From positions 1 through 28,948 of the IMG/VR virus record IMGVR_UViG_3300027782_005853: 28,948 nucleotides of DNA; one strand, given 5' to 3'. The notes under the pieces are model-generated. The model ran no database searches. It was not told where the DNA came from and saw only the letters and a list, made by a program, of their open reading frames with translations. The stretch comes from a virus. Below, piece after piece: positions 2,862 through 26,500 of the stretch (its first letter is position 1; each line of letters begins with the position of its first letter). Position numbers and translations under genes: made by a program.

Positions 2862-3377
2862 TATATATGAATGTTTTTCCAAAAACGCATCTATGTGTGC
2901 AAGTAGATCTATATTTTGTTCGACTTTTTCTTTAGGCCAATTCCACCATTGTATTTTCATCAATTTGTCTATTACATTTTGTTCGAATCTATATCTAATA
3001 ATTTTAGCAGGGTTTCCAGCGACAATAGCAAATGGTGGCACATCTTTGGTAACGACTGCTCTAGCACCGACAATAGATCCGTGACCAATAGTAGTACCGC
3101 CAAATATCATTGCTTCTGTACCGATCCAACAATCAGATCCGATTTCGATTGGACCTTTATCTCTTCCTGTTGGGTAGTTTGAATTTGGGTAATGTGATTT
3201 GAAACGGAAGTTACTTACAGTTGGATGATGTATTGAAGCATGGTCAATAGGACCACCGCAAAGAAAGGTGACTCTTCGTGCGATTCCAGAATAGTTTCCA
3301 ACGGTTATTTGTGCGTTTGGAAAATACACGATACAGTCTTGATTTATGACAGAAAGAGTTCCGAGAGTTATTCCCAT
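2853..3377 (-). CDS. Left-handed beta-helix acyltransferase (CatB/Vat-like)
   Basis: A 174-residue hexapeptide-repeat acyltransferase. Imperfect [LIV]-G-x4 repeats run from about residue 20 and are clearest at residues 75-122 (IEIGSDCWIGTEAMIFGG, then TIGHGSIVGARAVVTKDV). They end in the family signature GNPAKIIRYRF. The insertion with HASIHHP near residues 46-52 and the C-terminal helix resemble the xenobiotic/CatB group. These enzymes move acetyl groups from acetyl-CoA to sugars, antibiotics or other small alcohols. Given several sugar genes in the window, O- or N-acetylation of a surface glycan is the likelier role here. The start has AAGGA upstream. The gene is translationally coupled (ATGA) to the tagged gene that follows. 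It has no tag itself. Confidence 0.88.
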   Translation of the reverse strand: MGITLGTLSVINQDCIVYFPNAQITVGNYSGIARRVTFLCGGPIDHASIHHPTVSNFRFKSHYPNSNYPTGRDKGPIEIGSDCWIGTEAMIFGGTTIGHGSIVGARAVVTKDVPPFAIVAGNPAKIIRYRFEQNVIDKLMKIQWWNWPKEKVEQNIDLLAHIDAFLEKHSYINS

Positions 3378-6406: not shown

Positions 6407-7153
6407 TTATTTGTTAAGTGAAATGTTTCTTGCTTCCAAATAATCATATTTCCAATTTGGATTTAAAATTATTTCTCCAATAGGTTCTTTGTTGTTTTTG
6501 ATTTTGTATTCGACATATTGTTTGGCATGTTCGGAAATATTTTCTTTAGACGCACCAAATGAAGAACCATGATAATCTTGAGATGATCCAAATCTGTATA
6601 TGTAAAAAATTTCTTCTTTTTTTATAATTTGATGTATGTTGCCGTATTTACTTGATATTTTTCGGAACAATATTACATCTAAATCGCATTTGTCTGTATC
6701 TGAAACACTATAAAAATCTACATTTTTCCAACAATCTATATCCATGCACAAACTTGAATGATGTAAGTTACTACATTGTACTAAGTTTTTATTAGATTGT
6801 TCGATGAACGCATCTCCAGTGTGGAAAATACCATGTGTGTTTATATTTTTAATAGATAAAGATATTTTCCAAGGAAGATAAATGTCATCATCTTCCCAAA
6901 CAAAAACATATTTTCCTGTACAATAAGAAATACAATCATTAAATTTTTTACTTAATGGTGTTATTCTTTCTTTTGAATTTATTATTTTGACTTCTGGATG
7001 ATCGAATAACAAGGTTTGTTCTGAAAAGTCGTTCAATATGACTAATTCTTTTTCGCCTTCGTAATCTTGTAATAAAAAGCTATGAATTGCTTCTTCGAGT
7101 AATTTAGTTCTACCATATGTGGCACAATAGCAACTTACTTTTGGATTTGTCAT
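6407..7153 (-). CDS. Glycosyltransferase family 2
   Basis: A 248-residue GT-A glycosyltransferase. The N terminus KVSCYCATYGRTKLLEEAI is the typical nucleotide-binding start of GT2 enzymes. LVILNDFSEQ follows near residues 38-46 and the metal-binding acidic motif WEDDDIYLPWK is at residues 86-96. The C-terminal half has a helical region and an EARN end. It would transfer a sugar from an NDP-sugar to a glycan, protein or modified DNA base; the acceptor is unknown. There is no Shine-Dalgarno sequence: the ATG is preceded by TATATATT and then CCACT, the same layout as at 14991. It is one of at least three glycosyltransferases in the window. Confidence 0.88.
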   Translation of the reverse strand: MTNPKVSCYCATYGRTKLLEEAIHSFLLQDYEGEKELVILNDFSEQTLLFDHPEVKIINSKERITPLSKKFNDCISYCTGKYVFVWEDDDIYLPWKISLSIKNINTHGIFHTGDAFIEQSNKNLVQCSNLHHSSLCMDIDCWKNVDFYSVSDTDKCDLDVILFRKISSKYGNIHQIIKKEEIFYIYRFGSSQDYHGSSFGASKENISEHAKQYVEYKIKNNKEPIGEIILNPNWKYDYLEARNISLNK

Positions 7154-11141: not shown

Positions 11142-11636
11142 TTATTCTTGTTCTTCTGATTCTATTTTGTCAATCGCCTGTCTTATTCTAGAAATTTGCA
11201 AAGGATCTTTATCCTTTGGCATATTGTTTTTAATGATTCTAAGAATCGACATAAAATGGGATTTATCTTCGTGAGCTAGGTCGATTAATGCGGTGAATAG
11301 TGGTTCTATTTTAGTTGCCAAGTTTGCGCTGCTGATTCCTAAATCAGAGCCAAACTTAGTAACAGTAGTTTCCATTTTCATACAATTTTTCATGCCTTTT
11401 TTCTTATGCTTTTTGGCATGTTCGGTTGCTTTTTTGATTGCTTCTTCTTTAGACATGCCACTAGCCATCATACGACTTGCCAGCACATCAATAAAATCTA
11501 TTTTGCCATCGCCATTTACATCTTGAGCTTTGACTTTTTTCTTTGCTTTCTTGCCTTCGCAAAGATCATAGTATTGATGTTCGGTGATCATACCTGCGAG
11601 GTAAAGACCGTAATTTGCATTTTGTTTATCGTACAT
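11142..11636 (-). CDS. EF-hand protein with basic linker
   Basis: A 164-residue protein. A single EF-hand or dockerin-type calcium loop lies at residues 39-50 (DVNGDGKIDFID), with ligands at positions 1, 3, 5, 9 and 12 (D39, N41, D43, D47, D50). It is flanked by a Lys-rich stretch and by VLASRMMASGMSKEEAIKKA. Residues 65-80 are strongly basic. The C-terminal half (residues about 85-164) looks like a helical bundle. AAAGGA lies before the ATG. Loops of the GDGK-x-DF-x-DV type followed by R-M-x-A-S-G-M occur in some large-phage proteins, so a virion role is possible. Confidence 0.75.
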   Translation of the reverse strand: MYDKQNANYGLYLAGMITEHQYYDLCEGKKAKKKVKAQDVNGDGKIDFIDVLASRMMASGMSKEEAIKKATEHAKKHKKKGMKNCMKMETTVTKFGSDLGISSANLATKIEPLFTALIDLAHEDKSHFMSILRIIKNNMPKDKDPLQISRIRQAIDKIESEEQE

Positions 11637-11737: not shown

Positions 11738-12013
11738 ATGAATTTACAAAAATGGTTTAAAGAATATAAGTCAAATTTATCTTGCACTTACTGCAACGCA
11801 AATCATCCAGCAGTATTAGATTTCCACCACAAAGATCCAAATAAAAAAGAATTTGATATTTATCGTCTTGTCAAAAATAGTTCGAGCAAAAAACTTATTA
11901 TTGAGCTAGAAAAATGCGAACCTATATGTTCTAACTGTCATAGAAAATTACATGCAAAAAAAGGAATATTCAATGCCAATCAAAGATCCTATAGCGAAAA
12001 AAGAATATCATAA
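11738..12013 (+). CDS. Small zinc-dependent HNH endonuclease (copy 1)
   Basis: A 91-residue HNH nuclease. C16-x-x-C19 and C64-x-x-C67-H68 make the zinc site, LDFHH at 27-31 gives the catalytic His pair, and the ...IELEKCEPICSNCHRKLH end is typical. Compared with the next gene it lacks the KDPIAKKEYHKEYHKK leader and ends in a tail, SYSEKRIS, formed where the reading frames overlap. It may be a trimmed duplicate or a minimal active form. The ATG has no clear Shine-Dalgarno sequence. The MNLQKWF start resembles the capsid tag but is part of the HNH family alignment, so I do not count it as a tag. Confidence 0.83.
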   Translation: MNLQKWFKEYKSNLSCTYCNANHPAVLDFHHKDPNKKEFDIYRLVKNSSSKKLIIELEKCEPICSNCHRKLHAKKGIFNANQRSYSEKRIS

Positions 12014-12311
12014 AGAATACCATAAAAAATGGTATATAAAAAATAAAGAAAAGCGTTGTGAACAAATAAAGAATCGTGAAAAATTAATTAGAAAAATGTT
12101 TCAAGAATACAAATCTAAACTATCTTGCTGTAAATGCGGAGAGAACGAAAGCGTAGCTTTAGATTTCCATCATGTTGGAAAAAAAACTGATATATTGAGC
12201 GTCATGGTGCATGATGGATTTTCTTGGGAAAGAATACAGGAAGAAATAAAAAAGTGTATAGTTTTATGTTCTAACTGCCATCGAATAGAACATTATAAAA
12301 ATAAAAATTAG
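11973..12311 (+). CDS. Zinc-dependent HNH endonuclease (copy 2)
   Basis: A 112-residue HNH nuclease. It starts MPIKDPIAKKEYHKEYHKKW, a common opening in this family, with AAAGGA about nine bases upstream, so I prefer ATG 11973 over the in-frame ATG at 11952. C52-x-x-C55 and C99-x-x-C102-H103 bind zinc, and LDFHH at 63-67 is the catalytic region. It is clearly related to copy 1 (EYKSKLSC versus EYKSNLSC) and overlaps its 3' end by 41 bases in another frame. As free-standing nucleases these may be selfish elements; no interrupted gene is obvious around them. Confidence 0.88.
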   Translation: MPIKDPIAKKEYHKEYHKKWYIKNKEKRCEQIKNREKLIRKMFQEYKSKLSCCKCGENESVALDFHHVGKKTDILSVMVHDGFSWERIQEEIKKCIVLCSNCHRIEHYKNKN

Positions 12312-12326
12312 AACAATATATATGAT

Positions 12327-12650
12327 ATGTTATACTTTTATATTATTGCAGCCGTATTTTACACATTCGACATGTTGATAACATTCAATGATGGATTCAG
12401 GAAATCAAATTGGTATTTACCAATGTCAATTACTGGTAATTTATTTGGTTCTATTTGTTGGTTTATGCTTGTAAAGCACTTGGACAACAACGATAGAATA
12501 CTAATTCATAGTGTATATTGGGATTTCATGATTTTGTTAATCGGATACATGTTGCCCTTAATGATTTATCAGTTTCACTTTAACTTTGGTCAAATTATTG
12601 GGATGTCAATGGTTGTGATTGGTTTGTGTTTACTCAAGGCGTTTCATTAA
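12327..12650 (+). CDS. Multi-pass membrane protein, 107 aa
   Basis: A 107-residue protein with about three to four membrane segments (residues about 2-18, 33-50, 68-84 and 88-105). A loop with FRKSNWYLPM sits between the first two. There is no Shine-Dalgarno sequence; AATATATA ends four bases before the ATG. The stop overlaps the start of the zinc-ribbon gene as TAATG, so the two are coupled. Function unknown. Confidence 0.68.
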   Translation: MLYFYIIAAVFYTFDMLITFNDGFRKSNWYLPMSITGNLFGSICWFMLVKHLDNNDRILIHSVYWDFMILLIGYMLPLMIYQFHFNFGQIIGMSMVVIGLCLLKAFH

Positions 12651-13629: not shown

Positions 13630-14919
13630 TTAATCACAAACATTAAGACATTTAATCACATTTTTATTTGAGAATCCAGACTTAAATTTGTATTGTTCTA
13701 ATTTTTTCTTTAGTTTTTCAATAACATCAATATCATTTTTACTTTTAATCAAATTATTTCTACAAAATGGATCTTGTAAAGTATTATAAACTTCTAATCT
13801 ATCTCTCTTGTAAAGATTTGAAAAATATTTTGGGTATTTTAAAATCATTTTTTTAAGAACTTTGAATTCATAAGCATCTGCTCCACCTTGTGCGCCTTCG
13901 TATATCGTACTACAATTTTCTATAATACTAAAATTATCATTATGATATGATGCCGTGAAGAAATTATGTTGATTATTGTTAGTTACATTCGTATCTGTCC
14001 ATCCAAATCCATAAAAAGAAGCATATTCTTTAAATAGGTCTTTCTCTCCTTCGAGTAATTTTACAAAACTTTTACCATCCATGTTGGAATTATGAGTGAT
14101 ATTTAAAAGTTCGAGTAATGTAGGCATCATATCTTTAACTGTGACAAAATCAGATTTATTGTCTCCTTGTTTAATTTCATCTGAAACAAAAACAAGCGGA
14201 ACATGCGAACTAAATCTATAACAATTGCCTTTGTAATAAGGGAATGGCATTGTGTTATCACTTGTTATAATAAAAAGCGTATCTTTTAATTTATTGTTAC
14301 GAATAAAGTTTCTAACCATTCCTATAAGATCATCAAATTCTTTAGATGCTAAAATGTATTTTTTATATTCGTTAATGTAATCTATATCATTAATTATTGA
14401 AGGAGGCATTGTCTCATAAGACATATTCAAATCATCTGGGTTTCGATTGTATTCATGTCCATCACGATGTGGAAAGGGAGAATTAAGAAATAATACTTTT
14501 CTTTTTGTCTGATCGTTAAATATATCCTTAAGTTTTCCTAATATTGTTTTTTTATCTAAAAATCCTTCAAATAATTTACATTTAAATTTATTTATTGGTG
14601 CGTAATGAAATGATTTTCCGATAATATAGCTTTCTATATCGTTTTCATTTAAAGTTTCAACCATTGTTTTGCATTTATCTTTTATAATTCCATTTTTAGA
14701 AAAGCCAAGCGCTCCATTATTGAATGGATACATGCCAGTCATCATGACCGATCTCGATGGTTGGCAAACTGATATATTTGTATTATGTTTATGAAATGTA
14801 AATCCTTCGGAGCAACATTCGTTTAAATTAGGATATAATGTTTCGAATAGATCTTTGTATTTAGATTCATATGGATAGCCCATGTCATCAGCACAAAGTA
14901 TTATAATATTTTTATACAT
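13630..14919 (-). CDS. Type I sulfatase
   Basis: A 429-residue arylsulfatase-superfamily enzyme. The metal-binding pair is in LCADDMGYP (residues 9-15). The signature SVCQPSRSVMMTGMYP puts the formylglycine Cys at 52 in C-x-P-S-R. GKSFHYAP near 115, PFPHRDGHEYNR near 150 and IITSDNTMPFPYY near 220 match the Lys, His and Asp-Asn active-site positions of the family. It hydrolyses sulfate esters, probably on a sulfated polysaccharide. It needs a formylglycine-generating enzyme, presumably from the host. No signal peptide is visible, unusual for a sulfatase, so it acts either in the cytoplasm or as part of a particle. No Shine-Dalgarno sequence precedes the ATG. Confidence 0.9.
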   Translation of the reverse strand: MYKNIIILCADDMGYPYESKYKDLFETLYPNLNECCSEGFTFHKHNTNISVCQPSRSVMMTGMYPFNNGALGFSKNGIIKDKCKTMVETLNENDIESYIIGKSFHYAPINKFKCKLFEGFLDKKTILGKLKDIFNDQTKRKVLFLNSPFPHRDGHEYNRNPDDLNMSYETMPPSIINDIDYINEYKKYILASKEFDDLIGMVRNFIRNNKLKDTLFIITSDNTMPFPYYKGNCYRFSSHVPLVFVSDEIKQGDNKSDFVTVKDMMPTLLELLNITHNSNMDGKSFVKLLEGEKDLFKEYASFYGFGWTDTNVTNNNQHNFFTASYHNDNFSIIENCSTIYEGAQGGADAYEFKVLKKMILKYPKYFSNLYKRDRLEVYNTLQDPFCRNNLIKSKNDIDVIEKLKKKLEQYKFKSGFSNKNVIKCLNVCD

Positions 14920-15366: not shown

Positions 15367-16134
15367 TTAAAAATTACAAGCTCTTTGTTTAGAATTATCG
15401 CTTCTTTCTGTATTGTAATCAACAGCCCCATTTAATGATCCAAATGGAACCCATGTTTTTTCTGGTATTACAAACAAATATTGGTAGTTTTCTTCTAATT
15501 CGAATTTCTTATGTGGATATATCATAATAGCTTCACGATTTTCATCTGTTATCTCGTTCTTTAATGATTGTATGTCACGCCAATCTCTAATTTTTTTATT
15601 ATCGTGTCTTTTTATTTTGATACAAACTCCTCCAGATGATTGTCTGTAAATAAAAACTTGTTTTTCATGATCGCTATAAAATTCAGAAGTTTTTTTGAAT
15701 TCATTTGGATTAAATTCAAAAGGGAATGTTTTTTCTGGAAAAACAAACAAATGATATTGGTTCGCACAATCTAATACCCTTGCTTGAGAAGGGTACAATT
15801 CTATGGCGATTCTGTTTTCTCCAGCTAGTTCGTCTTTTATTTGTTGTAGGTGTTCTATATCAAAAATAGCTTCCTTGTCTTTTCTCTTTATAGACAAATA
15901 AAGGAAGTCTTCAATTTGGTTTTCTTTCAAGTGAATGTAGTGTTTGGCTTGAATGCCATTTTGCAAGTTGACTTGGTATATATCGTTTACCCATACTTGG
16001 CAATCTGTGACTTGTTTGCAAAGTAATTTTGCTTTTGTCTCATCTAAATTAAACCTAGCGATTATTTCGCCAACTATGCTTTTTTTTGTATTTTCGGAAA
16101 AATCAGATCGTGTAAACTTTTTCATATACTTCAC
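15367..16134 (-). CDS. Two-repeat DUF7694-like protein
   Basis: A 255-residue protein made of an N-terminal helical part and two copies of one domain. Copy 1 (residues about 79-140) has LSIKRKDKEAI, LQQIKDELAGENRIAIELYP, ANQYHLFVFPEKTFPF. Copy 2 (about 172-238) has IKIKRHDNKKIRDWRDIQSL, EAIMIYPHKKFE, ENYQYLFVIPEKTWVPFG. The pattern I/L-S-I-K-R-x-D ... W-R-D-x-Q-x-I-K-N-E-L ... E-A-x-x-x-Y-P recalls DUF7694 (identified from memory), which occurs in phages and many bacteria with no known function. AAGGAG is close to the ATG at 16134. A second in-frame ATG three codons on is possible. Confidence 0.72.
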   Translation of the reverse strand: MKYMKKFTRSDFSENTKKSIVGEIIARFNLDETKAKLLCKQVTDCQVWVNDIYQVNLQNGIQAKHYIHLKENQIEDFLYLSIKRKDKEAIFDIEHLQQIKDELAGENRIAIELYPSQARVLDCANQYHLFVFPEKTFPFEFNPNEFKKTSEFYSDHEKQVFIYRQSSGGVCIKIKRHDNKKIRDWRDIQSLKNEITDENREAIMIYPHKKFELEENYQYLFVIPEKTWVPFGSLNGAVDYNTERSDNSKQRACNF

Positions 16135-16151
16135 TCCTTGTGTGTATCTTT

Positions 16152-16179
16152 ACTATATCCATAAATAAATTTTTGTAAA
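16152..16179 (-). promoter_or_regulatory. Possible sigma70-type promoter
   Basis: On the minus strand, TTTACA, 16 bases, then TATAGT, ending about 18 bases before the start at 16134. A second TTGACA lies further upstream near 16189-16194. Confidence 0.45.
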
Positions 16180-16212
16180 GCTATATGATGTCAATATCTA
16201 TAAATATATTAA

Positions 16213-16365
16213 TTAGAACCAGCCTATATCTCCCATAACGACCTTTTTACCGGGAAACATTTCTAATGGAATTTTACTTTTTTTCTTTTTCTTTTCGTTT
16301 ATTATGTTTTTATCTGATTGAATTATAACTTTATTATGTTTTAACCATTCTTTAAATGATATCAT
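16213..16365 (-). CDS. Tagged small basic protein, 50 aa
   Basis: A 50-residue protein starting MISFKEWLKHN, one of the clearest tag matches. Next come KVIIQSDKN, IINE (an I-x-E site), a run KKKKKSK and an end MFPGKKVVMGDIGWF. If cut after IINE it would release a 26-residue, very basic peptide. AAAGGATTAAC precedes the ATG. It follows the tagged gene at 16394-16822 on the same strand, and both share an AAAGGATTAA leader. The mature peptide could bind packaged DNA; this is inferred. Confidence 0.7.
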   Translation of the reverse strand: MISFKEWLKHNKVIIQSDKNIINEKKKKKSKIPLEMFPGKKVVMGDIGWF

Positions 16366-16393
16366 GTTAATCCTTTGAGTGAATTTTTTGATT

Positions 16394-16822
16394 TTATTTA
16401 AAACCCTTGTCGCCTCTTACAAAACGCTTCGCATCTGGTTCTTTGTCTTCTTTGTTTGATTTTTTAATTAATTCTTTCATATATTCTTCGATTTTAGGAA
16501 TGCTAGTTACGATCTTTATTTCGTTGAATTTCAATTCATTAACGAGTTCTGTTTTTAATTTTTCTTTTAGTTTTTCGTGGAACCCCAATTTTGTTTTTAA
16601 CAAAGGTGCCATATCTGGTTTTTTTAAAAGATCACTTTCGATCATTTTAACCGATCTATAAAAGTCAACTAATGTTTCTTTTGTTTCTTTTGAAATCGAC
16701 TTAAGAACTTCAAAAGCACTTTGTATTTTAGGAATGTGTTCTTTTTCCACCACGCCTTGCTCGTACCACTCCATGGCTTCGACTAAATCTCTTTGTTCTA
16801 CATAATTTTTAAATCCAATCAT
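16394..16822 (-). CDS. Tagged helical protein, 142 aa
   Basis: A 142-residue, mostly helical, Lys/Glu-rich protein. It starts MIGFKNYVEQRDLVEAMEWY: F-x-x-Y-V-E matches the tag, and L-V-E at residues 13-15 would be a prohead protease site. The rest has amphipathic helices (KLKEKLKTELVNELK) and a basic end (AKRFVRGDKGFK). AAAAGGATTAATT precedes the ATG. No known fold is recognised. It heads a short minus-strand unit with the 50-residue tagged protein. Confidence 0.72.
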   Translation of the reverse strand: MIGFKNYVEQRDLVEAMEWYEQGVVEKEHIPKIQSAFEVLKSISKETKETLVDFYRSVKMIESDLLKKPDMAPLLKTKLGFHEKLKEKLKTELVNELKFNEIKIVTSIPKIEEYMKELIKKSNKEDKEPDAKRFVRGDKGFK

Positions 16823-16920
16823 AATTAATCCTTTTAAATTATTTATTTTTAAATTTATTGTTTTAAATTTAAATTAATTTATTCTGGTGGTTTTTTCTTA
16901 CCAAATATCTATTATTTTAA

Positions 16921-16949
16921 TTGACAAATTATATGCAAATGAATTAAAT
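16921..16949 (+). promoter_or_regulatory. Possible sigma70-type promoter
   Basis: TTGACA, 17 bases, then TTAAAT, about 32 bases before the nuclease gene at 16982. The 158-base gap between divergent genes is otherwise very AT-rich, with TTTAAATTTAAA palindromes near 16863. Confidence 0.5.
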
Positions 16950-16981
16950 TACGAAAAGGAAACTTTTGTAAAGGATTATTT

Positions 16982-17500
16982 ATGTCTGAATTTGAAAGTA
17001 AAGTAGCTATAGAAACCACGATAACTCTTGATTTGACCGAGCAATTGATATGCAAGGCAATAGCCAATAAGAGATATCAGAACGCAAGAGACATGAATGT
17101 TAAAAACTCTAAAATGGGTGGACAATCTAACGAACAAACCGATCTTGAAGGGATTTCTTCCGAACTGGCATTTTGCAAGTTGTTTAATGTATATCCAGAT
17201 TTAACTGTACAAGTAAGGTCGTCAGCAGAAGGCACAGATGATGGAGACGCTGTTTTACGAGATGGAAGAACGGTAGATGTAAAAAGTACGAAGTACCACA
17301 CAGGAAGGCTTCTTGCGGTTAGATGGAAGAAGCCAAAAGTAGATTTTTTCGCTTTAATGATTGGAAGTTTTCCAACATATACATTTAAAGGATTCATGAA
17401 AAGCGAAGAACTTTTAAAAGAACAAAGAATAGGAAATTTGGGTCATGGAAATGGCTACATAGCAGAACAGCACGAACTCAAGCCATTAGAAACTATATGA
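16982..17500 (+). CDS. PD-(D/E)XK-like nuclease
   Basis: A 172-residue protein. GISSELAFCKLF (Glu61) begins the core. D89 in DDGDAVLRDG and D99-V-K101 in RTVDVKST then give the E...D...D-x-K catalytic layout, followed by strand and helix elements (LAVRWKKPKVDFFALMIG). This is typical of small restriction-like phage nucleases, which may degrade host DNA, resolve branched DNA or trim ends. The N terminus (IETTITLDLTEQL) is strand-rich. AAAGGATTATTT precedes the ATG. It ends exactly where the convergent kinase-like gene ends, with no gap. Confidence 0.78.
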   Translation: MSEFESKVAIETTITLDLTEQLICKAIANKRYQNARDMNVKNSKMGGQSNEQTDLEGISSELAFCKLFNVYPDLTVQVRSSAEGTDDGDAVLRDGRTVDVKSTKYHTGRLLAVRWKKPKVDFFALMIGSFPTYTFKGFMKSEELLKEQRIGNLGHGNGYIAEQHELKPLETI

Positions 17501-17959
17501 TTAATTTTCACACCTTAATTTATTTATTTTAACATCATGCTCGAAATCATCTAACATTTTTTCCAATACATGTTGTGGTATTTTTTTGGTATTCTTAACA
17601 GCAAGTTGTTTTGGTTCCCAAATCCACCCATTGTCTGGCAATTCAATTTTTATTTTATAACCATAGATGTCGCCTAATTTAACATAAGGCTTCATGTCTT
17701 CGGCTTTTATGTTCATGTTATCGATTACAATCGGAGTAATGCCTTTTCGCATTGCCAGTTCAGTTTTGTGTTGATTTTTTTCTTCATAGTTTTTAATTTT
17801 ATCAAAATCATATTCATCAGAAAAATCATCAGTAGAATAGATGACTCCGCCAATACCAAGAGTTTTGGCCTTGTTTGTTCTTCCAGAACCCGGCAGTCCA
17901 CGCATTATAATAAGATGCTTGTCGTGTATGTTTTCAAGCCATGAATAAAATGATTTCAT
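17501..17959 (-). CDS. Tagged P-loop kinase-like protein with altered Walker A
   Basis: A 152-residue protein of the polynucleotide-kinase-like/N4BP2L P-loop group. The tag MKSFYSWLENIHDKH is followed at once by LIIMRGLPGSGRT (Walker A, residues about 16-28), then STDDFSDEYDFD, and PIVIDNMNIKAEDMKPYV near residue 76-93. These match the substrate-binding DDF and the DNxNI/T block of the family. The invariant Walker A Lys is Arg here (AGA codon), which normally spoils ATP binding. Relatives phosphorylate nucleic acid ends or act as small kinases. The leader has AAGGAC and a TATATATA box. The enzyme could be inactive, or changed to bind without catalysis. Confidence 0.82.
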   Translation of the reverse strand: MKSFYSWLENIHDKHLIIMRGLPGSGRTNKAKTLGIGGVIYSTDDFSDEYDFDKIKNYEEKNQHKTELAMRKGITPIVIDNMNIKAEDMKPYVKLGDIYGYKIKIELPDNGWIWEPKQLAVKNTKKIPQHVLEKMLDDFEHDVKINKLRCEN

Positions 17960-18014
17960 ATTTGATGTCCTTAAACACTATATATATTAATCAACTTACA
18001 AAATGAGGTGCAAT

Positions 18015-18368
18015 ATGTCATTTGAAAGTCACACGATATTACAACATACAAATCTCGCAGAAATAATCAAAATAAAAGAATCAAAAGTTTATGATGAAAC
18101 CATGGTTGGCATGATTAATGATGAAATAAATCAAGCATTAGATTCGAATGATAAAAAATTCATAATACTTGATTTCTCAAAAGTTAAATATCTATCGAGT
18201 TCATTTCTTGGTAAAATAATATCGATCAATAAAAAAATAAAAGCCAAAGAAGGTAAGTTGTTTTTGACTGGACTTAACGCTGACATCATGGAAGTGTTTC
18301 AGATAACCAAACTAGAAAAGTTTTTTAATTTTCAATCTAATGTAGAATCTGCCTTGGATAGCATTTAG
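18015..18368 (+). CDS. STAS-domain anti-anti-sigma factor-like protein
   Basis: A 117-residue single STAS domain. The conserved strand-loop ILDFSKVKYLSSSFLGKIIS at residues 51-70 holds the Ser cluster (S61-S63), one of which would be the phosphorylation site of SpoIIAA-type proteins. KLFLTGLNADIMEVFQITKL then completes the fold. Such proteins bind anti-sigma or regulatory kinases and free a sigma factor. The phrase LSS-x-x-LGKII and the EVFQITKLEKFF end resemble planctomycete versions (from memory). ATG 18015 is preferred because GAGG is seven bases before it; the ATG at 18003 lacks one. It is divergent from the tagged kinase gene, with a shared TATATATATT region. Confidence 0.85.
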   Translation: MSFESHTILQHTNLAEIIKIKESKVYDETMVGMINDEINQALDSNDKKFIILDFSKVKYLSSSFLGKIISINKKIKAKEGKLFLTGLNADIMEVFQITKLEKFFNFQSNVESALDSI

Positions 18369-18371
18369 ACA

Positions 18372-18542
18372 TTAGCGAGACGATTTTTTTTGTTTATGAA
18401 ACCAATTTTTAAAATCTAATTCCATTTTTCTTACTTTGGGTGTATTGCTCTTTTTACAATTTAAATCAGACAATGCTCCCCATATTTGGAAGTTTGGATT
18501 GTCTATGTCTTTACATGTTACTATTGATTCTGATTCGTTCAT
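18372..18542 (-). CDS. Small hypothetical protein, 56 aa
   Basis: A 56-residue frame starting MNESESIVTCKDIDNPNF and ending MELDFKNWFHKQKKSSR. There is no Shine-Dalgarno sequence, but a TATATA box ends five bases before the ATG. It fills the gap exactly, ending three bases from the STAS stop. The LDFKNWFHKQ stretch near the end looks like a displaced copy of the tag. It could be non-coding. Confidence 0.42.
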   Translation of the reverse strand: MNESESIVTCKDIDNPNFQIWGALSDLNCKKSNTPKVRKMELDFKNWFHKQKKSSR

Positions 18543-18619
18543 AAAAATATATATTAACTTAAATTTTTTTTAATATATACAATTAGTCAAGACGACGTTT
18601 TTGGGCATGGATGCCCTCT

Positions 18620-19246
18620 TTATACGATCATAACATTTGGATATATCGAAGCTGTTCGCAACAATAGAATCATAGAATCAAAAAAAGAATAAGTGTTTCT
18701 ATTGATGTCTCCATAGAAACTCCAACTTTCATAAAATGTTTTTTTACTTATACATTCCAACAATCCATTTGATGGGTTTCCTATGTAAATATTATTTGGA
18801 GAGAATCCAATTACAACCACATAATGCCATGTGTATCTTCCTGACCTAACAAGGCATATAACTGGTTTGTTTCTGGATATATTATCTTCAAGTAATTGAA
18901 GATTACCTCTAAAAACACTACAAGGAATATGGTGTTTTTTTAATGTGGAAACGATGTTTCGAGGTATTGTCATTCCGTATTTTTCGTTTTTATAAACGAA
19001 CCATTCGGTTTTAGTTTCTGTTCTTATCTCGTCATATACATGAAATACAGAGTAGTAATCTAACACCATAGAAACACAGGCTGGACCACACGATATATCA
19101 TCAGACTGCATTTTGAATGATGAAAAATTTGAAATAAAATGATTTTTTTTAACTATAAGTTTTTCATGTAACGCCACATACAGGCAAAAAATAGCAATTG
19201 CTACAACAAATGTGGTCACAAAAATTTGAATTTTACTTGTTATCAT
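18620..19246 (-). CDS. Membrane-anchored C39-like cysteine peptidase
   Basis: A 208-residue protein. Residues 6-26 are a membrane anchor. FKMQSDDISCGPACVSMVLDYY follows (Gln47 of the oxyanion hole, Cys53 nucleophile). WHYVVVIGF holds His141, and IYIGNPSNG has Asn157 where most family members have Asp. C39 peptidases usually sit at the front of peptide-exporting ABC transporters and cut double-glycine leaders; this one stands alone with a membrane anchor, as in stand-alone C39-like families. I use ATG 19246, which overlaps the 3' end of the upstream membrane gene by 14 bases. It could process a secreted peptide or the host envelope. Confidence 0.78.
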   Translation of the reverse strand: MITSKIQIFVTTFVVAIAIFCLYVALHEKLIVKKNHFISNFSSFKMQSDDISCGPACVSMVLDYYSVFHVYDEIRTETKTEWFVYKNEKYGMTIPRNIVSTLKKHHIPCSVFRGNLQLLEDNISRNKPVICLVRSGRYTWHYVVVIGFSPNNIYIGNPSNGLLECISKKTFYESWSFYGDINRNTYSFFDSMILLLRTASIYPNVMIV

Positions 19247-19481
19247 TGTAATATTTTTTAGATAAAATAAACCAACCGAAATATATGGCCATGCCACCAA
19301 GCAATCTAGCTCCAGCTACTGGCAAAGTAATCCAGAAAACTCCTAATGCCAATGTTACAACAGCCATAACTGTTGAAATCCAAGATGGCAAAAATTTAAT
19401 ATTGAAAACGATCAATGAGATCGGACCAATCAATAGAACAAACATAAAAATAAATGTAACTAAAAGAGCTAAACTTGCCAT
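19233..19481 (-). CDS. Small membrane protein, 82 aa
   Basis: An 82-residue, mostly hydrophobic protein with about three membrane segments (residues about 4-28, 36-55 and 57-74). LIGPISLIVF and LPVAGARLLGGMAIYFGWFI are notable turns. It overlaps the start of the C39-like gene, so the two probably work together or are co-translated. No ribosome-binding site is seen before the ATG. Family not recognised. Confidence 0.65.
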   Translation of the reverse strand: MASLALLVTFIFMFVLLIGPISLIVFNIKFLPSWISTVMAVVTLALGVFWITLPVAGARLLGGMAIYFGWFILSKKYYNDNK

Positions 19482-19533
19482 GTTGTATGTATGTTGAAAA
19501 ATAACAATAAAAGTAAACTAATATAAACACAAC

Positions 19534-20118
19534 ATGTTAAATGAAAAAACTCAATATTTCGATACATCAAAAAAGATTTTAAATCTTATACCAAAAAATG
19601 GTATTATCGCAGAAATTGGCGTGTTGCGTGGCGAATTTTCAAATCAGATCAACATATTGTGCAATCCAAAAAAGTTATTCTTGATAGATTGTTGGGAAGA
19701 GCAAGATGATGAAAAATATTTACTAGACACTTACAATGAAGGCGATGAACAAACACATGAAGAAAACTATATAAATGTTTTAAAGAAATTTATAAACAAA
19801 GATAATGTAAAAATAATAAAAGCCAACTCTGATTTAGCCAGCAAATTATTTGATAGAAATTTTTTCGACATGGTTTATTTAGATGCAAGCAAATACCACG
19901 AAGATGTAACGAGAGATTTAGATTCGTGGTATCCACTTGTCAAATACAGCGGTTTACTATGTTGCAATAATTACGAAAATGTAGAAGAAAAATCAAGCAT
20001 TCAAGTAAATGATGCTGTGAATAAATTTTGCATTAAAAATAATTTGTTTATAACCCACATGACATTTGAAAAAAATTCTTTTTTCGCTATGTCAAAGCCT
20101 AATTTAAAATTATTTTAA
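19534..20118 (+). CDS. Class I SAM-dependent methyltransferase (Methyltransf_24-like)
   Basis: A 194-residue protein. IIAEIGVLRGEFSNQI at residues 24-39 is the SAM-binding glycine motif, LFLIDCWEE near 48-56 the second acidic strand, and FDMVYLDASKYHEDVTRDLD at 111-130 the later motif with conserved His. This order matches small methyltransferases often found in sugar-modification clusters, so O-methylation of a glycan is a fair guess; protein or small-molecule substrates are equally open. There is no Shine-Dalgarno sequence; TATAAACA ends four bases before the ATG. Its end overlaps the convergent gene at 20115 by four bases. Confidence 0.82.
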   Translation: MLNEKTQYFDTSKKILNLIPKNGIIAEIGVLRGEFSNQINILCNPKKLFLIDCWEEQDDEKYLLDTYNEGDEQTHEENYINVLKKFINKDNVKIIKANSDLASKLFDRNFFDMVYLDASKYHEDVTRDLDSWYPLVKYSGLLCCNNYENVEEKSSIQVNDAVNKFCIKNNLFITHMTFEKNSFFAMSKPNLKLF

Positions 20119-20390
20119 CGATTATTGAATTTTTTGTTGATAAACACTTCCGCTTTTACCAAATCTTTTTTGCACATAGATTTACTGAATTTCTTTTTCC
20201 CGAAAATTTCAGAAACGGCAATTAAATCTTTTATGCTTACTGGTCTTGCGAAATTGACACTTTCTTCACCATTAAAAACCCCAATGTAAGCTATGATTTC
20301 ATTATTTTCAGAATTCTTTAATTTAACTAAATCTGAACCCATGCCAACCAAATCAGAAAAATCAGCTTGTTGTTGAATTATGTGACTCAT
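20115..20390 (-). CDS. Small hypothetical protein, 91 aa
   Basis: A 91-residue protein: SDLVKLKNSENNEIIAYIGV, then FARPVSIKDLIAVSEIFGKK, and a basic end. The layout (strand pair, then two helices) suggests a small alpha/beta fold. I recognise no family. A weak GAGG lies 12 bases before the ATG. Its leader, on the minus strand, includes the possible pseudoknot at 20501-20532. Confidence 0.6.
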   Translation of the reverse strand: MSHIIQQQADFSDLVGMGSDLVKLKNSENNEIIAYIGVFNGEESVNFARPVSIKDLIAVSEIFGKKKFSKSMCKKDLVKAEVFINKKFNNR

Positions 20391-20500
20391 CTAAAGAAAA
20401 ACCTCGTTTAATTTGAAAAATCAAAAGTACAAAATTATTCTACTTTCAATTAGGCGACTGTACATGTCAAATTAAATTTTTTGTAGTTATTGTTCAAGAA

Positions 20501-20532
20501 ACCACACTTTGCTGCGGTGGTCGACATGCAGC
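20501..20532 (-). promoter_or_regulatory. Possible H-type pseudoknot in intergenic leader
   Basis: ACCAC (20501-20505) pairs with GTGGT (20517-20521). GCTGC, inside that loop (20511-20515), pairs with GCAGC (20528-20532). The interleaved stems make an H-type pseudoknot on either strand. It lies between two minus-strand genes in a 141-base gap and is much richer in GC than its surroundings. Stems are only five pairs, so chance is possible. Confidence 0.35.
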
Positions 20533-21416
20533 TAAACTAACAATACTGGTTCTAGTTTTCTGCCTATCTTCTTCAAATAAGATCCAGCTAAATTATGCAT
20601 GTAATAAGAAGCGTATGTGCTTGGATTGACACGCAGTAATTCAAAAGGATCTCCGTAGTTGAAACTAGAGTTACTGAACATAAATTTGTGAAAAAATGGA
20701 GGAAATCCGTTCTTGTAATGTATAAAATTAAAATTATCATTATTGTCTCGCATGTGTGATTCGCAATTGGGAAGATAATTCATATAAAGTTCAGATTTAC
20801 TTTTCATAAGAATAATTGCTAACATAATTTTATATGTTTTTTCATGAACCTTATTATTAAATCTATATTGCTTTAACGACACATAAGCTATGTGTTCAAT
20901 CAATGCATTAAAAAAATCTAATTTCATGTTGTTGAAAACAATTACAGCACCCATGCTAATCCAATTATCAGATAAAAAATCATCAGTAACATCAAATATT
21001 TCTTTAAAGTTTGGTATTTCTTCCATGAATTTTTTATAATCAAAATCTAAATTACTGGAAAAAAACACAGAAGGAAATTCGGTCTTAACGCTATCTTCGA
21101 AAGGCTTGTGCAATACAACATCGCTTTCCAAAAGAGCGAAAGATGATTTCAACTCGTTGTTGTCAACAAGGGTTTTTATAGAAAAAAATATATTTGCTTT
21201 TGAGTAGCCAAATTCAAATCCATGATCTGGAATTTGATACATTTGAATTCCCTGAAACGCTGTGTTGAACATATATTTTAAATTATCAGAAAGAGTGTCT
21301 GCAAAAAAAGATAATTTTAAATTACTTGTAAGATTTTTTTGAATAAAACTTTCAATAAGCAATTCGTTTTGCCATTGATAAAATTCATTGATTTTTGATA
21401 CTAATAAATAATCCAT
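20532..21416 (-). CDS. Putative glycosyltransferase with ESD motif
   Basis: A 294-residue protein of the type found in surface-sugar clusters. FGYSKANIFFSIKTLVDNN and then FALLESDVVLHKPF (acidic E97-S98-D99) resemble the donor-binding helix and DxD-like motif of GT-A glycosyltransferases. IHYKNGFPPFFHKF near residue 235 could be the late His motif. The overall family is not one I can name. It is divergent from the epimerase gene across a 32-base gap, and both may be made together for one glycan. No Shine-Dalgarno sequence precedes the ATG. Confidence 0.6.
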   Translation of the reverse strand: MDYLLVSKINEFYQWQNELLIESFIQKNLTSNLKLSFFADTLSDNLKYMFNTAFQGIQMYQIPDHGFEFGYSKANIFFSIKTLVDNNELKSSFALLESDVVLHKPFEDSVKTEFPSVFFSSNLDFDYKKFMEEIPNFKEIFDVTDDFLSDNWISMGAVIVFNNMKLDFFNALIEHIAYVSLKQYRFNNKVHEKTYKIMLAIILMKSKSELYMNYLPNCESHMRDNNDNFNFIHYKNGFPPFFHKFMFSNSSFNYGDPFELLRVNPSTYASYYMHNLAGSYLKKIGRKLEPVLLV

Positions 21417-21428
21417 AAACTATTTTAG

Positions 21429-21436
21429 TATAAATA
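21429..21436 (+). promoter_or_regulatory. TATAAATA box before the epimerase start
   Basis: An exact TATAAATA, six bases before the ATG at 21443 and twelve before the ATG at 21449. If it acts as a late promoter, the transcript would begin at 21443 and be leaderless from there; an AAGGA overlapping the box instead supports 21449. Confidence 0.35.
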
Positions 21437-21448
21437 AGGAAAATGTTT

Positions 21449-22357
21449 ATGAAAATAATAGTAACAGGTGCCTCTGGTTTTATTGGAACGAATTTAGTCA
21501 AATATTTAAAAAATAAAAAAATGCATGTTATTGCCGTTTGCGATTACACTTGTGAATCTAGTGATATCGCAGATGAAGCTATTTTTACTGGTTTAATTGG
21601 ATTAAAAAGTAAATTTTTACTAACAAAAAAGGCAGATGCCATAATTCATATGGCAGCAAACAACGATACCTTATCAGAAGATACCGAACAAATGATAAGA
21701 CACAATTATCTTTCGTCCAAAAAGATGCTTAAATTAGCAAAAAAACTTAATTGCAGTCGATTTATTTACGCATCAAGTATGGCGGTATATGGCAATAAAA
21801 AAGACCAAGAAGACCCTCTTAACATTTACGCTACATCTAAACTAATGTTTGATAATTTCATAAGAGATGAAACTTCGTTTAATGGCGAAAAAGATATAAC
21901 AATAGTTGGTTTGCGATTATGCAATGTTTATGGACCCTATGAATGCATTAAAGAAAGAAGAATGAGCTTTCTTGGAAGAATGCTAAGAAACATGATACTT
22001 AACAAGACGATTGATTTATTCGAAGAAACAGGCAATAAAAGAGATTGGGTCTATGTAGAAGATGTATGTGAAGCGATTTTTAAATCACTTCAAGCAAGCA
22101 AACACGGTATTTACAATATTGGATCTGGAAGTACTATTTCTTTTATTGATTTATTTGAAAAACTAGCTCGTGTTACAAATTACAAAAATAAACCAAAATT
22201 AATCAAAAACAAAAACATCAAATCTTATCAAAACATAGAAACAAATGACATTTCATTAGCCAAAAGTGATCTTGGGTATAAACCTAAGTACAATTTAGAT
22301 AAAGGCATTGAAAAATACTACAAAGAAATTAAAGAGAATTATCCTGCCACTTTTTAG
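21449..22357 (+). CDS. NAD-dependent sugar epimerase/dehydratase (HldD/GalE-like)
   Basis: A 302-residue extended short-chain dehydrogenase. G7-x-x-G10-x-x-G13 in VTGASGFIGTNL binds NAD, DAIIHMAA follows, ASSMAVYG precedes the catalytic Y127-A-T-S-K131, and RLCNVYGPYE and RDWVYVEDVCEAI are family blocks. The R-D-W/F-V-Y-V-x-D-V and NVYGP phrases are closest to ADP-heptose 6-epimerase (HldD) and UDP-sugar 4-epimerases. It would make an activated sugar for the nearby glycosyltransferases. Start 21449 has AAGGA at eight bases; 21443 adds two residues. The 3' end overlaps the convergent tagged nucleotidyltransferase gene by 29 bases. Confidence 0.9.
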   Translation: MKIIVTGASGFIGTNLVKYLKNKKMHVIAVCDYTCESSDIADEAIFTGLIGLKSKFLLTKKADAIIHMAANNDTLSEDTEQMIRHNYLSSKKMLKLAKKLNCSRFIYASSMAVYGNKKDQEDPLNIYATSKLMFDNFIRDETSFNGEKDITIVGLRLCNVYGPYECIKERRMSFLGRMLRNMILNKTIDLFEETGNKRDWVYVEDVCEAIFKSLQASKHGIYNIGSGSTISFIDLFEKLARVTNYKNKPKLIKNKNIKSYQNIETNDISLAKSDLGYKPKYNLDKGIEKYYKEIKENYPATF

Positions 22358-23771
22358 TTGATAAAAATCTTTTTATTCCTTCTACTTCGTCTCCAACTGG
22401 CTTTCTGTTGTGGAAAGGATAATAAATAGGATTGTATTCCATGGATTCATCGTTCTTGGCATCAAAATCTAAATCGTTTTCGTCATGATTGATGAAATTA
22501 TCAAATTTATTGCCATCGTGACCATTGAGATGCATCCAATTTTTAAGTTTGTTTTTAGACAATCCGCATGGAGCATGCTTAAGGTCATAGAACATCATAG
22601 GGTCGTATGAATTTTTTGCCCAATTATGTAATTTAATAAGATGACAAATGTCACCAGCTTCAGTTGACTTATATCCCAAAGACATTAAATCTTGTTTGGC
22701 ATCTTCTGGTTCGGAGTTTTTAAAAATATGAGCCAAACTTAAATGTTTGTCTCTATTTATTTCTGGAATATTTGAATCAAATTTAGAACTTGGGAATAAA
22801 TGTTTTACAATACCTAAACTATGCAAGGTACTTAAAAATTTCTTAGTGTTTACATCTGGATGAGACAAACCTTTTAAAAATTCATCATGTAATATTTTTT
22901 TATCAAATCTTAAATTGTCCATTTTAGAAATAGAATTAATCAATCCTTGATCTGGTTTTTCTCCAAACCTATTTAACATACTAGCATATCTCATAATAAC
23001 ATGAGGATCTTCTTCGATTCTTTTCGACATGTTGTTGTTTATAAAAACAATTCTTTTGTTTTTCAAATCACTTAAACCGCCAAATGGATCTAACAAGTCT
23101 GCGTTATCGCCATCTGAATTATTCAAAGGAATATACATGGAATTAAATGTCAAATCTCTATTCATACCATCTTCTTCAATCGAAGAAGCTGCATTGTTTT
23201 CATCTGGAGAAAGATATTTGCTCTTTGGAGCATTCGATAATGTCGAAACATTAAAGGTTTGTCCTTTAATGTGAACTTGAAATTCTATTTCTTTACCAGA
23301 TTTGTCCCATCTACTTGCGTGAAAGTTCTTGTTGTCGGAATCTTCTGGCAAATCTTCGTATTTACTTCTATTTGATTTAGGAAAGTTTTCTGGTTTTACT
23401 TCTGTAAAATCATGTTCTTCGTCAGATAAAATCATACGGATTTCTGATGGTGTAGCATCAGTAACTATATCATAATTTTTAATTGTCTTATTAGATAGAT
23501 GGTCTCTTACCGCACCACCTGTAAGCCAAATTTTCTTCTTTTTAAGTTGTGGCTCTATTTCGCCTTTATTTTTTTGTATCGTTGTATAGCCGAGTTTGAC
23601 ATTTTTAGAATTATCAAAAGCCTTGATCAAATCTCTCAAATTTGCATGAGAAGACTTGTTGACAGAAAAAGGACCAAAGTCCTTTTCTTTTTGTAATTTA
23701 ATCTTTGAAACTAAAGGTAAATCTCCCTTGGTTTCTTTCAACAAACAATATTTTTTAAAAAAATTCGACAT
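22329..23771 (-). CDS. Tagged CCA-adding/poly(A) polymerase-like nucleotidyltransferase
   Basis: A 480-residue protein. The N terminus, SNFFKKYCLLKETKGD, has an aromatic/aliphatic tag with an L-K-E site. The class II nucleotidyltransferase head follows: WLTGGAVRDHLSNKTIKNYD (residues 82-101), DIVTDATPSEI, FNVSTLS, and MNRDLTFNSMYIP (the R-R-D-x-T-x-N block). A helical neck with DPHVIMRYASMLNRFG and a C-terminal region resembling poly(A) polymerase/CCA enzymes complete it. The usual D-x-D catalytic pair reads N99-Y-D101, so one metal-binding Asp is Asn. Relatives add CCA to tRNAs or A-tails to RNA. GGAGAG precedes the ATG. A packaged RNA-end-modifying enzyme would act on host RNA at entry. Confidence 0.85.
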   Translation of the reverse strand: MSNFFKKYCLLKETKGDLPLVSKIKLQKEKDFGPFSVNKSSHANLRDLIKAFDNSKNVKLGYTTIQKNKGEIEPQLKKKKIWLTGGAVRDHLSNKTIKNYDIVTDATPSEIRMILSDEEHDFTEVKPENFPKSNRSKYEDLPEDSDNKNFHASRWDKSGKEIEFQVHIKGQTFNVSTLSNAPKSKYLSPDENNAASSIEEDGMNRDLTFNSMYIPLNNSDGDNADLLDPFGGLSDLKNKRIVFINNNMSKRIEEDPHVIMRYASMLNRFGEKPDQGLINSISKMDNLRFDKKILHDEFLKGLSHPDVNTKKFLSTLHSLGIVKHLFPSSKFDSNIPEINRDKHLSLAHIFKNSEPEDAKQDLMSLGYKSTEAGDICHLIKLHNWAKNSYDPMMFYDLKHAPCGLSKNKLKNWMHLNGHDGNKFDNFINHDENDLDFDAKNDESMEYNPIYYPFHNRKPVGDEVEGIKRFLSTKKWQDNSL

Positions 23772-23819
23772 AATCTCTCCAGTTGTATAAAACTATTTAG
23801 TACCATGAATCAAAAAATA

Positions 23820-24137
23820 TCAAGGACTTGGAAGTCTTAAAACGTATAGAAGGTAAGCGGATGTTAAAATAACAACAATTTTAAAAGCCCAATCTGCAAT
23901 TCTTGATATAATACTTTCAGTAGAATTTGCCTTGCAACTAATGTCTTTAATCTGTAATTCCAAATCGTGAACCTTATCAATTAAATCATTAATGTTTTGA
24001 TTGATAAGGTTTATTTCCTTTTCTATGTTTTCAATATTTTCATCATTTCTATAAACGATACTACTTATATGACTTATATTGGTCGATAAGTCTGACAACA
24101 AAATGATTTGAGAATCTATATTTTTAGAATTTGTCAT
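23820..24137 (-). CDS. Coiled-coil protein with C-terminal membrane anchor
   Basis: A 105-residue protein. Residues 10-75 show regular heptads rich in Asn, Ile and Leu, a strong coiled coil, followed by a single membrane segment at about 85-101 and a short RLPSP end. The plan (coiled coil then C-terminal anchor, about 100 residues) is like XhlA-type haemolysin/holin helpers, but also like many small phage tail or membrane proteins. It is divergent from the gene at 24180 across 42 bases. Confidence 0.65.
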   Translation of the reverse strand: MTNSKNIDSQIILLSDLSTNISHISSIVYRNDENIENIEKEINLINQNINDLIDKVHDLELQIKDISCKANSTESIISRIADWAFKIVVILTSAYLLYVLRLPSP

Positions 24138-24179
24138 ACTTGTCCATTTCTTTTTAAGCCTTTAACATATATAGGTTAT

Positions 24180-24689
24180 ATGAATCAAGACATACCAGAA
24201 AATGATGAAAAACTTATAAATCAAAACATCGATACAGATATAATCGACCAATTGACAAAAGATGTCGACAATGTTGTACCTCAACTTAACATTGGTATGC
24301 CAGAAAATAACATGTCAGATGTTTCGAACATAGTAAAAGACGAAGAACTTGTCGAAATGTACAAAGACATAATTGGTTACATTAAGGACGATAGATGTCA
24401 AATAGATACTTACATCGATAATTTCGCCAATATGGTTATGAACGATGGCGATGCGACATCATCAACCAAAGAAGCTCTTGTTAATTTGATTAAAATAAAA
24501 AGTGATATGTCCGACAAAATGTCAAAAGTAGCAGATCTAATGACTAGAATTAAATTAAAAGAAAGAGATACCTTTCCTAAATACCTAGCAGCACAACAAA
24601 ACAATACAATTAATATTGGTAATAATGGAAATAATTCGAGAAGATCTTTGATAGAAGCATTAAATAAAGCAAAGACAAAAAAGGAATAA
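24180..24689 (+). CDS. Possible small terminase subunit (T4 gp16-like) or virion protein
   Basis: A 169-residue acidic-then-helical protein. After an acidic N-terminal 55 residues, a helix pair runs from DEELVEMYKDIIGYIKDD to STKEALVNLIKIKSDMSDKM and VADLMTRIKLKERDTFP. This is followed by NNTINIGNNG and a short C-terminal helix RRSLIEAL. This order resembles T4 gp16-type small terminases (helical hairpin, then Asn-rich N-x-x-x-x strand, then a C-terminal helix). Similarity is by layout only, so a portal- or scaffold-related role is also possible. The ATG lacks a Shine-Dalgarno sequence and has TATATAGG just before it. It is four bases from the next gene. Confidence 0.5.
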   Translation: MNQDIPENDEKLINQNIDTDIIDQLTKDVDNVVPQLNIGMPENNMSDVSNIVKDEELVEMYKDIIGYIKDDRCQIDTYIDNFANMVMNDGDATSSTKEALVNLIKIKSDMSDKMSKVADLMTRIKLKERDTFPKYLAAQQNNTINIGNNGNNSRRSLIEALNKAKTKKE

Positions 24690-24693
24690 CAGT

Positions 24694-25995
24694 ATGTCAA
24701 GAAACACTACAACACAATGGTGGATCAACGAACAAGAAATAGATCCAAATGTAAATCAGCCAACGGCAGCTATTGCACCAGATGCAAATGTACAAGATCC
24801 AAATGCTACGATACCACCAGCTGATACCAACCAACAAGTACTCAATCAATCCCCTCCAGAATCCCCAAAAGAAACCGAGGAAGAGGATGTGTCAGAAGAT
24901 CCTAATTCTCCAGACATGCCAGAGGAAACCGAAAAGAATGATGAAAATTTTGAATTATGGAAAGATACATTTTTCAAAGAATCAATCAAAGGTGATGCCA
25001 ACAAGCTAATGGATCTAATTCACAAAATTAGAGACATGGAACTCGATTCTTATCCGAGAAAATTCGTTGAAGATAATCTTCAAATATGTTTTTTAAGACA
25101 AAATGCTAATATTCAAAAAGCTAGTGATAGCATTAGAAAATTGCTTCATCAAGAATTAGACAAAAACAATCCAGCAGTTTCTTTAGTAAACCATATTTCA
25201 CAAACTCTAAAAGAATCAAATGAAATAAATCCTATATTTATAAAAATCAAAGGCTTGCTTGGAATGAAAGCAGATTTACATAGAAAATTTATCGCATCGC
25301 TAATTGGCGGAGTCCAAGTTGGAACTGGCGGTAATCTAGAAGATGTAGTTTATAACGAAAGAGATTTTTCAATCAGAATTTCAACTAGATTTAACGACAA
25401 ATGGGGAAGAGTAGATATCGGCAAATGGTCTATGCGTGAAGATGATCCAAAAAAATTCCTTAGTGATCCAGAAATAAAAAGATTAGAAGACGGAAGTCCA
25501 GAAGAAAAAGATGTCCTTCGAAAAAGAATTTGTCTAGAAGCCTTAGCCGAGTCTTTCAAGAAAAGAGCCTTTATCATCAATGTGGCTAACGAAGACGGCA
25601 CAGTATACACACTCGGATGGGATATATCTAATTGCATTAGAAACGCATACGAAGAAGGCAAACTTATAATTAAGTTGTCTAAATTAGAAAATTCAGAAGC
25701 TATGATTTCAGACGATGGCAGCATAGTTTCATATGTGGATATAAAAATAAAATATGCAAAAGAATCTGGAGAATTGGATGACGAAGGCAATCCTTCACTA
25801 GAAGAACTTGATTTCATGGAAAGAATCGATGGCGTTATGTTTTTAACTGCAAGTTACGATACAGTAAAAGAAGCTGTAAGCAACATGCAGGGGATAATAT
25901 TAAAAGAAGAACCATACAAAGGCAATCCAAGTGATCTTAGATCACTCCAAAGATGCGTTCCAAATTCGAGTGAAATTTTACTCCGTCAATGTTAA
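24694..25995 (+). CDS. Large virion-type protein with acidic Pro-rich N terminus
   Basis: A 433-residue protein, probably structural, of no family I can name. It starts MSRNTTTQWWINEQE, where I-N-E at 11-13 fits the prohead protease rule. Residues about 15-85 are a disordered Pro/Glu/Asn-rich segment. A folded core follows from about 88, with helices (FELWKDTFFKESIKGDANKL) and a strand-rich C-terminal half (DFSIRISTRFNDKWG and others). The AAAGGA at the end of the previous gene serves as its ribosome-binding site. It is followed by two tagged small proteins, making this the most likely virion cluster of the window. Confidence 0.65.
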   Translation: MSRNTTTQWWINEQEIDPNVNQPTAAIAPDANVQDPNATIPPADTNQQVLNQSPPESPKETEEEDVSEDPNSPDMPEETEKNDENFELWKDTFFKESIKGDANKLMDLIHKIRDMELDSYPRKFVEDNLQICFLRQNANIQKASDSIRKLLHQELDKNNPAVSLVNHISQTLKESNEINPIFIKIKGLLGMKADLHRKFIASLIGGVQVGTGGNLEDVVYNERDFSIRISTRFNDKWGRVDIGKWSMREDDPKKFLSDPEIKRLEDGSPEEKDVLRKRICLEALAESFKKRAFIINVANEDGTVYTLGWDISNCIRNAYEEGKLIIKLSKLENSEAMISDDGSIVSYVDIKIKYAKESGELDDEGNPSLEELDFMERIDGVMFLTASYDTVKEAVSNMQGIILKEEPYKGNPSDLRSLQRCVPNSSEILLRQC

Positions 25996-26005
25996 AGGAA
26001 TTTAT

Positions 26006-26485: not shown

Positions 26486-26500
26486 TCATTTGAGGAAAAT

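Follow-up and report, generated by a model that had tools for sequence, protein, structure and literature searches.

The window, i.e., the whole stretch of 28,948 nucleotides analysed here, encodes a complete S1 (formylglycine-type) sulfatase without a signal peptide and, as judged from sequence comparison, represents part of the genome of a huge T4-like phage. Homologues of the enzyme are carried by other phage contigs. The best explanation of the sequences is that exported bacterial sulfatases gave rise to this phage branch, from which the export signal is absent. There is an about even chance that the protein acts inside the infected cell, activated by the host, as one of a set of phage enzymes that remodel glycans. 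Algae-rich waters commonly contain sulfated sugars, which also occur on some cell surfaces, and bacterial sulfatases control whether these sugars can be used. Phage control of sugar sulfation, if true, might be a lead to a sulfated receptor or glycan of the virion.

The sulfatase gene and its active site

The sulfatase ORF reads from an ATG at 14919 to a stop codon ending at 13630 (Table 1). No ATG, GTG, or TTG lies 5' of this start codon in the open frame, and the plus strand across the same interval contains many stops. Residues 3-274 of the product match the Pfam Sulfatase model (PF00884) with 85.2 bits vs. a curated cut-off of 25, as expected of the S1 formylglycine-dependent family, and SGSH_C (PF16347) is matched with 43.5 bits. 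An earlier note on this DNA had proposed a complete type I sulfatase here, and the ORF ends and both domain matches bear this out. The GC content of the gene is 27%, the lowest among the ORFs compared; since several neighbours have 27-28%, the composition gives no sign of a recent import from a GC-rich source. The T4 late-promoter pattern TATAAATA does not occur more often than by chance, and in the orientation of the sulfatase it is absent immediately 5' of the gene.

Table 1. Coordinates of the sulfatase, its active-site residues, and other features of the window
Feature	Position	Strand	Remark
S1 (formylglycine-type) sulfatase ORF	13630..14919	minus	429 aa, complete, without signal peptide
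D11-D12, metal ligands	14884..14889	minus	SGSH D31-D32; alignment to SGSH
C52-Q-P-S-R56, formylglycine motif	14752..14766	minus	C52 is the nucleophile precursor; motif scan and alignment
K102-S-F-H105, GKxxH	14605..14616	minus	GKxH in SGSH and most relatives; alignment
H151, probable general acid	14467..14469	minus	SGSH H181; alignment to SGSH
D221-N222, metal ligands	14254..14259	minus	SGSH D273-N274; alignment to SGSH
K230, O-sulfatase sulfate-binding lysine	14230..14232	minus	Arg282 in SGSH; alignment to SGSH
Hexapeptide-repeat acetyltransferase	2853..3377	minus	Glycan context
Family 2 glycosyltransferase	6407..7153	minus	Glycan context
Nucleotide-sugar epimerase/dehydratase	21443..22357	plus	Glycan context
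Small protein, N-terminus MYDKQNANYGLYLAGMITE	11142..11636	minus	Matches gene directly upstream of sulfatase in G013/G017/G018/G021
Left flank, three ORFs	11738..12650	plus	Homologues at 270.7-273.0 kb of LR756511.1
Right flank	15367..28948		ORFs 92-98% identical (one 73%) to IMG/VR contig L005/G001
Core block	20532..26485		Common to 12 IMG/VR contigs, partly to 595-kb phage LR756511.1

Residues were assigned by alignment to human SGSH, using the active-site table of that enzyme as the reference (PMC4014121). The catalytic positions are filled by D11, D12, C52, R56, K102, H105, H151, D221, N222, and K230. The C/S-x-P-S-R signature is represented by Cys52-Gln-Pro-Ser-Arg56, and a degenerate motif scan found CxPSR once in the window and in none of 100 shuffles. 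The metal- and sulfate-binding residues are likewise in place, with one extra residue in the register of K102 and H105. The formylglycine site and the metal ligands (D11, D12, D221, and N222) had both been called intact in the earlier note, and both statements hold. Loss of Cys52 in relatives, which it had named as a refutation, was not seen: the motif is kept in the phage relatives, and all sulfatases of the phage clade have Cys52.

The N-terminus, MYKNIIILCADDMGY, leads directly into the metal-binding strand, and because the protein begins at the first strand of the fold, there is no room for a signal peptide. Its absence was judged by inspection and hydropathy. The best 12-residue hydropathy of the window protein is 1.1, vs. 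2.1 for the sister sulfatase of Persicobacter and 1.5 for that of Novosphingobium; the leader of the Nonomuraea protein was missed by the scan since its called start lies upstream of the leader. By inspection, Sec- or Tat-like leaders are present in these sister bacterial sulfatases and in none of the phage sulfatases. These results, and the lack of an upstream start codon, agree with the earlier observation that no signal peptide is visible.

A structure model based on eight sequences from viral contigs (pLDDT 71, pTM 0.81) is poor at loop 223-238 and at the C-terminus; a first model (pLDDT 50) was too poor and was set aside. SGSH is the best match of the model in Foldseek (E 3e-27) and in VIA-align 2 (Z 34.7, 401 residues, rmsd 3.1). 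With a profile of the phage clade, human SGSH also scores best (158 bits), followed by S1_8A (136 bits). SulfAtlas assigns SGSH to S1_8 (PMC5066984), other members of which take sulfate off the 2-position (PMC12549532). A tentative placement in S1_8 follows these profile and fold rankings, with no SulfAtlas model in the comparison. The PehA and arylsulfatase equivalog models were rejected, with scores far under their cut-offs. Arg282 of SGSH is tied to its N-sulfate substrate, and O-sulfatases have a lysine there (PMC4014121). The phage sulfatases keep a lysine at this position, in a loop poorly placed by the structure model, and for this reason the window protein appears likelier to be a sugar O-sulfatase than a sulfamidase. 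By analogy with S1_8 enzymes, it is predicted to act probably at the 2-O-position.

Phage context of the window

The source record is a linear fragment from IMG/VR. Contig L005 (record G001) matches it from the gene right of the sulfatase through the window end, and continues beyond that point with a DNA end protector and, ~14 kb further, with T4-like baseplate wedge subunits. This contig begins just before the sulfatase, so the sulfatase-bearing stretch has no independent near-identical contig cover. The 22.3-26.5 kb part of the core block is common to LR756511.1 with its neighbours kept, i.e., the shared core genes are in synteny with huge T4-like phages related to LR756511.1. Of the 44 window ORFs, 13 have a match in LR756511.1 and 10 in a 340-kb relative. 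T4-like structural genes lie outside the window, but they are present in the near-identical contig (baseplate wedge) and in the sulfatase-bearing contig G013 (head genes). The match on the left flank is weaker phage evidence, because two of its ORFs (11738-12311) resemble HNH-type genes, which move easily. The genome had been described as phage-like in the earlier note, which the contig that reaches baseplate genes and the core block shared with LR756511.1 corroborate; the host-chromosome context that it named as a refutation was not found.

The window contains several other features. A tRNA-Met(CAT) gene is located at 7443-7515 (minus), and a CCA tRNA nucleotidyltransferase-like gene (22329-23771, minus) is conserved across the phage lineage. 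Tandem repeats of 18-21 nt (13118-13469, plus) encode part of a GGFGQG-rich protein (12875-13609) that is convergent with the sulfatase. The small protein at 11142-11636 has the N-terminus M[FY]DK.N.NY..YLAG.I[ST]E..YYD.CE in common with proteins of contigs G013, G017, G018, and G021, which diverge afterwards. Another short N-terminal peptide, M.F..W[LI].E (e.g., MNFKQWLLE and MKSFYSWLE), is found on unrelated proteins (Nudix, acetyltransferase-like, and kinase-like), namely those at 1846-2322, 2326-2856, and 17501-17959 (all minus) and 26501-26752 (plus), as well as in contigs L051 and L119; a strict regular expression for it matches ~0.1% of shuffled proteins. The peptide appears to resemble the capsid-targeting peptides of T4 internal proteins.

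Sulfatases in other viruses and their origin

When 2.9 million IMG/VR contigs were scanned for the motif, 12 were returned, of which 11 have a PF00884 match. Homologues of the window protein at 30-33% identity are encoded in five contigs (G013, G017, G018, G021, and G016), and as the genes of G013 and G021, and those of G017 and G018, are identical, these represent three distinct proteins. Later IMG/VR scans gave the same five homologues and no others, in line with the earlier remark that sulfatases are rare in phages; the number of homologues is understated, however, because the scans see exact degenerate motifs only. Single-sequence scans of IMG/VR and of genome contigs found no relative, and four-sequence and two-sequence alignments as queries were likewise unsuccessful before the motif pattern was used. 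PF00884 was found neither in LR756511.1 nor in the 12 contigs (mostly fragments) that share the core block. Contig G013 itself is related to LR756511.1, with matches for 32 of its 89 ORFs and a head protein that is 78% identical.

Two further matches, MT835824.1 and MT835799.1, are labelled Bacteriophage sp. in GenBank and originate from human faeces; they were rejected, as the stretches read hold bacterial metabolic genes only. Campylobacter phage A11a, a 174-kb unannotated UNVERIFIED record, has a sulfatase-like gene near 83.1 kb with a CTPAR site, and its product falls outside the phage sulfatase clade.

In a tree of 29 proteins, sampled with neither planctomycete sequences nor S1_8 reference sequences, the window protein and three other phage proteins form one clade (support 100/98). 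Its sister group (support 100/99) and nearest sampled bacterial proteins are the exported sulfatases of Persicobacter, Nonomuraea, and Novosphingobium. GKxxH-type spacing is common to the phage proteins and this sister group, with GKxH in SGSH and most others. The window protein is on a long branch (2.22) and shares only ~30% identity with the other phage proteins. Scanning genomes with the phage profile returned a single weak match, from a deltaproteobacterium, which is placed outside the clade in the tree. For one phage pair, the sulfatases of G013 and G017, a dN/dS of 0.11 reveals purifying selection and hence constraint in phages; the window gene is outside this measurement. No published report of a phage-encoded sulfatase, or of a signal-less sulfatase branch recurrent in huge T4-like phages, was found in the limited library of literature searched.

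Possible roles and comparison with known systems

Searches of the window and of related records revealed neither a formylglycine-generating enzyme (FGE, PF03781) nor the anaerobic maturase anSME (TIGR03942), so the host must activate the sulfatase, which would be inactive in a host without a maturase. If the enzyme is intracellular, it would be made in the host cytoplasm during infection, where host FGE or anSME would convert Cys52 to formylglycine. With the metal held by D11, D12, D221, and N222, the hydrated formylglycine would attack the sulfur and H151 would donate a proton, and sulfate would be removed from a sugar, with a terminal or single residue as the most likely substrate and its 2-position as the site. 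Acting inside the cell beside the other sugar-modifying enzymes of the phage (Table 1), the sulfatase may remodel sulfated sugars or the precursors of glycans, whether of the host or of the phage.

Related phages encode sulfotransferase families. In LR756511.1 (595 kb), PF03567 is found at two places and PF13469 at three (sulfotransferase-family genes at 121.8, 205.5-208.9, 406.3, and 433.6 kb), G002 has one PF13469 gene, and in G016 a PF03567 gene (L051:16226-16804, plus) adjoins the sulfatase convergently; neither family was found in the window or in G013, G017, and G018. A sulfation theme in the phage lineage is suggestive, and the recurrent signal-less sulfatase branch, together with the sulfotransferases of the lineage, suggests phage manipulation of sugar sulfation. 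It is an unlikely, speculative extension that huge phages run their own sugar sulfate cycle, in which sulfotransferases add and the sulfatase removes sulfate and thereby tune a virion, phage-DNA, or host-surface glycan.

The main rival, a tentative possibility, is that the enzyme is part of the virion or lysate and desulfates a host capsule or surface glycan, aiding adsorption or progeny release. Action outside the cell is compatible with the missing signal peptide, because virion proteins and lysis products need none; this absence suits a virion protein and an intracellular enzyme equally well. Among characterised enzymes, the nearest relatives have sulfated polysaccharides, or oligosaccharides from them, as substrates, and in G013 the sulfatase gene lies ~7 kb from the genes for a T4-like major head protein and head protease. 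However, searches of the window protein showed no tail-fibre, trimerisation, or carbohydrate-binding domain; its 429 residues comprise the sulfatase fold alone. It also does not carry the M.F..W[LI].E peptide found on other window proteins, and its gene is placed among variable accessory genes, outside any structural operon.

It is improbable that the sulfatase serves nutrition or signalling, i.e., that it hydrolyses small sulfate esters of the cytosol for their sulfate, sugar, or alcohol in support of infection, as the product of a classical auxiliary metabolic gene. The lack of an export signal would suit this use, one S1_8 enzyme is monosaccharide-specific (PMC12549532), and choline sulfatases are structurally near the model (Z ~28), but the choline-sulfatase model TIGR03417 gives 48.6 bits vs. 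a cut-off of 433, by which that identity was rejected, and the window proteins scanned included none recognisable as part of sulfur assimilation. Slightly more doubtful still is a sulfamidase (N-sulfatase, EC 3.10.1.1) like human SGSH, which is the best match by both sequence profile and fold, but whose Arg282, the residue linked to the N-sulfate substrate (PMC4014121), is replaced by Lys230, and whose GKxH is GKxxH in the window protein. Lastly, it is very improbable, and largely refuted, that the window is host-chromosome DNA or part of a chimera: some phage-labelled records are bacterial (the two from human faeces) and the junction at the sulfatase is without independent cover, but ORFs on both flanks have homologues in LR756511.1 or its kin, and a chimera is unlikely since five other contigs carry sulfatase homologues in phage context.

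An intracellular, host-activated sulfatase, the preferred reading, can be set against several known systems. Human SGSH (PDB 4mhx/4miv; S1_8) has the same fold over nearly the full length, the same catalytic set, the SGSH_C region, and the FPxx[KR]xNxY loop, whereas the window protein is ~20-22% identical to it, shorter, phage-encoded, and without a signal peptide, apart from the two active-site differences mentioned above. The lambda-carrageenan 2-O-sulfatases S1_8A/B/C (PDB 9bb9, 9bbd, and 9bba) are O-sulfatases in the SulfAtlas subfamily of SGSH, but they are periplasmic enzymes of a carrageenan-degrading bacterium, with 16-18% identity to the window protein in structure alignments. The sulfatases of Persicobacter, Nonomuraea, and Novosphingobium, all from plasmid records, have the CxPSR context, the GKxxH-type spacing, and the loop lysine in common with the window protein, but are ~70-95 residues longer and have leaders. 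Virus-encoded proteins with a predicted sulfatase fold are also known from Satyrvirus, Terrestrivirus, Yasminevirus, and Tetraselmis virus 1; these giant viruses have eukaryotic hosts, however, and their proteins are 14-19% identical. The structure library containing them gave no phage protein with a significant match. In Pseudoalteromonas phages, formylglycine-generating enzymes have been reported (PMC10232697), which ties phage genes to sulfatase chemistry, but through the activator rather than the sulfatase. The kind of enzyme is already known; what appears to be new, relative to the literature searched, is a phage branch without an export signal.
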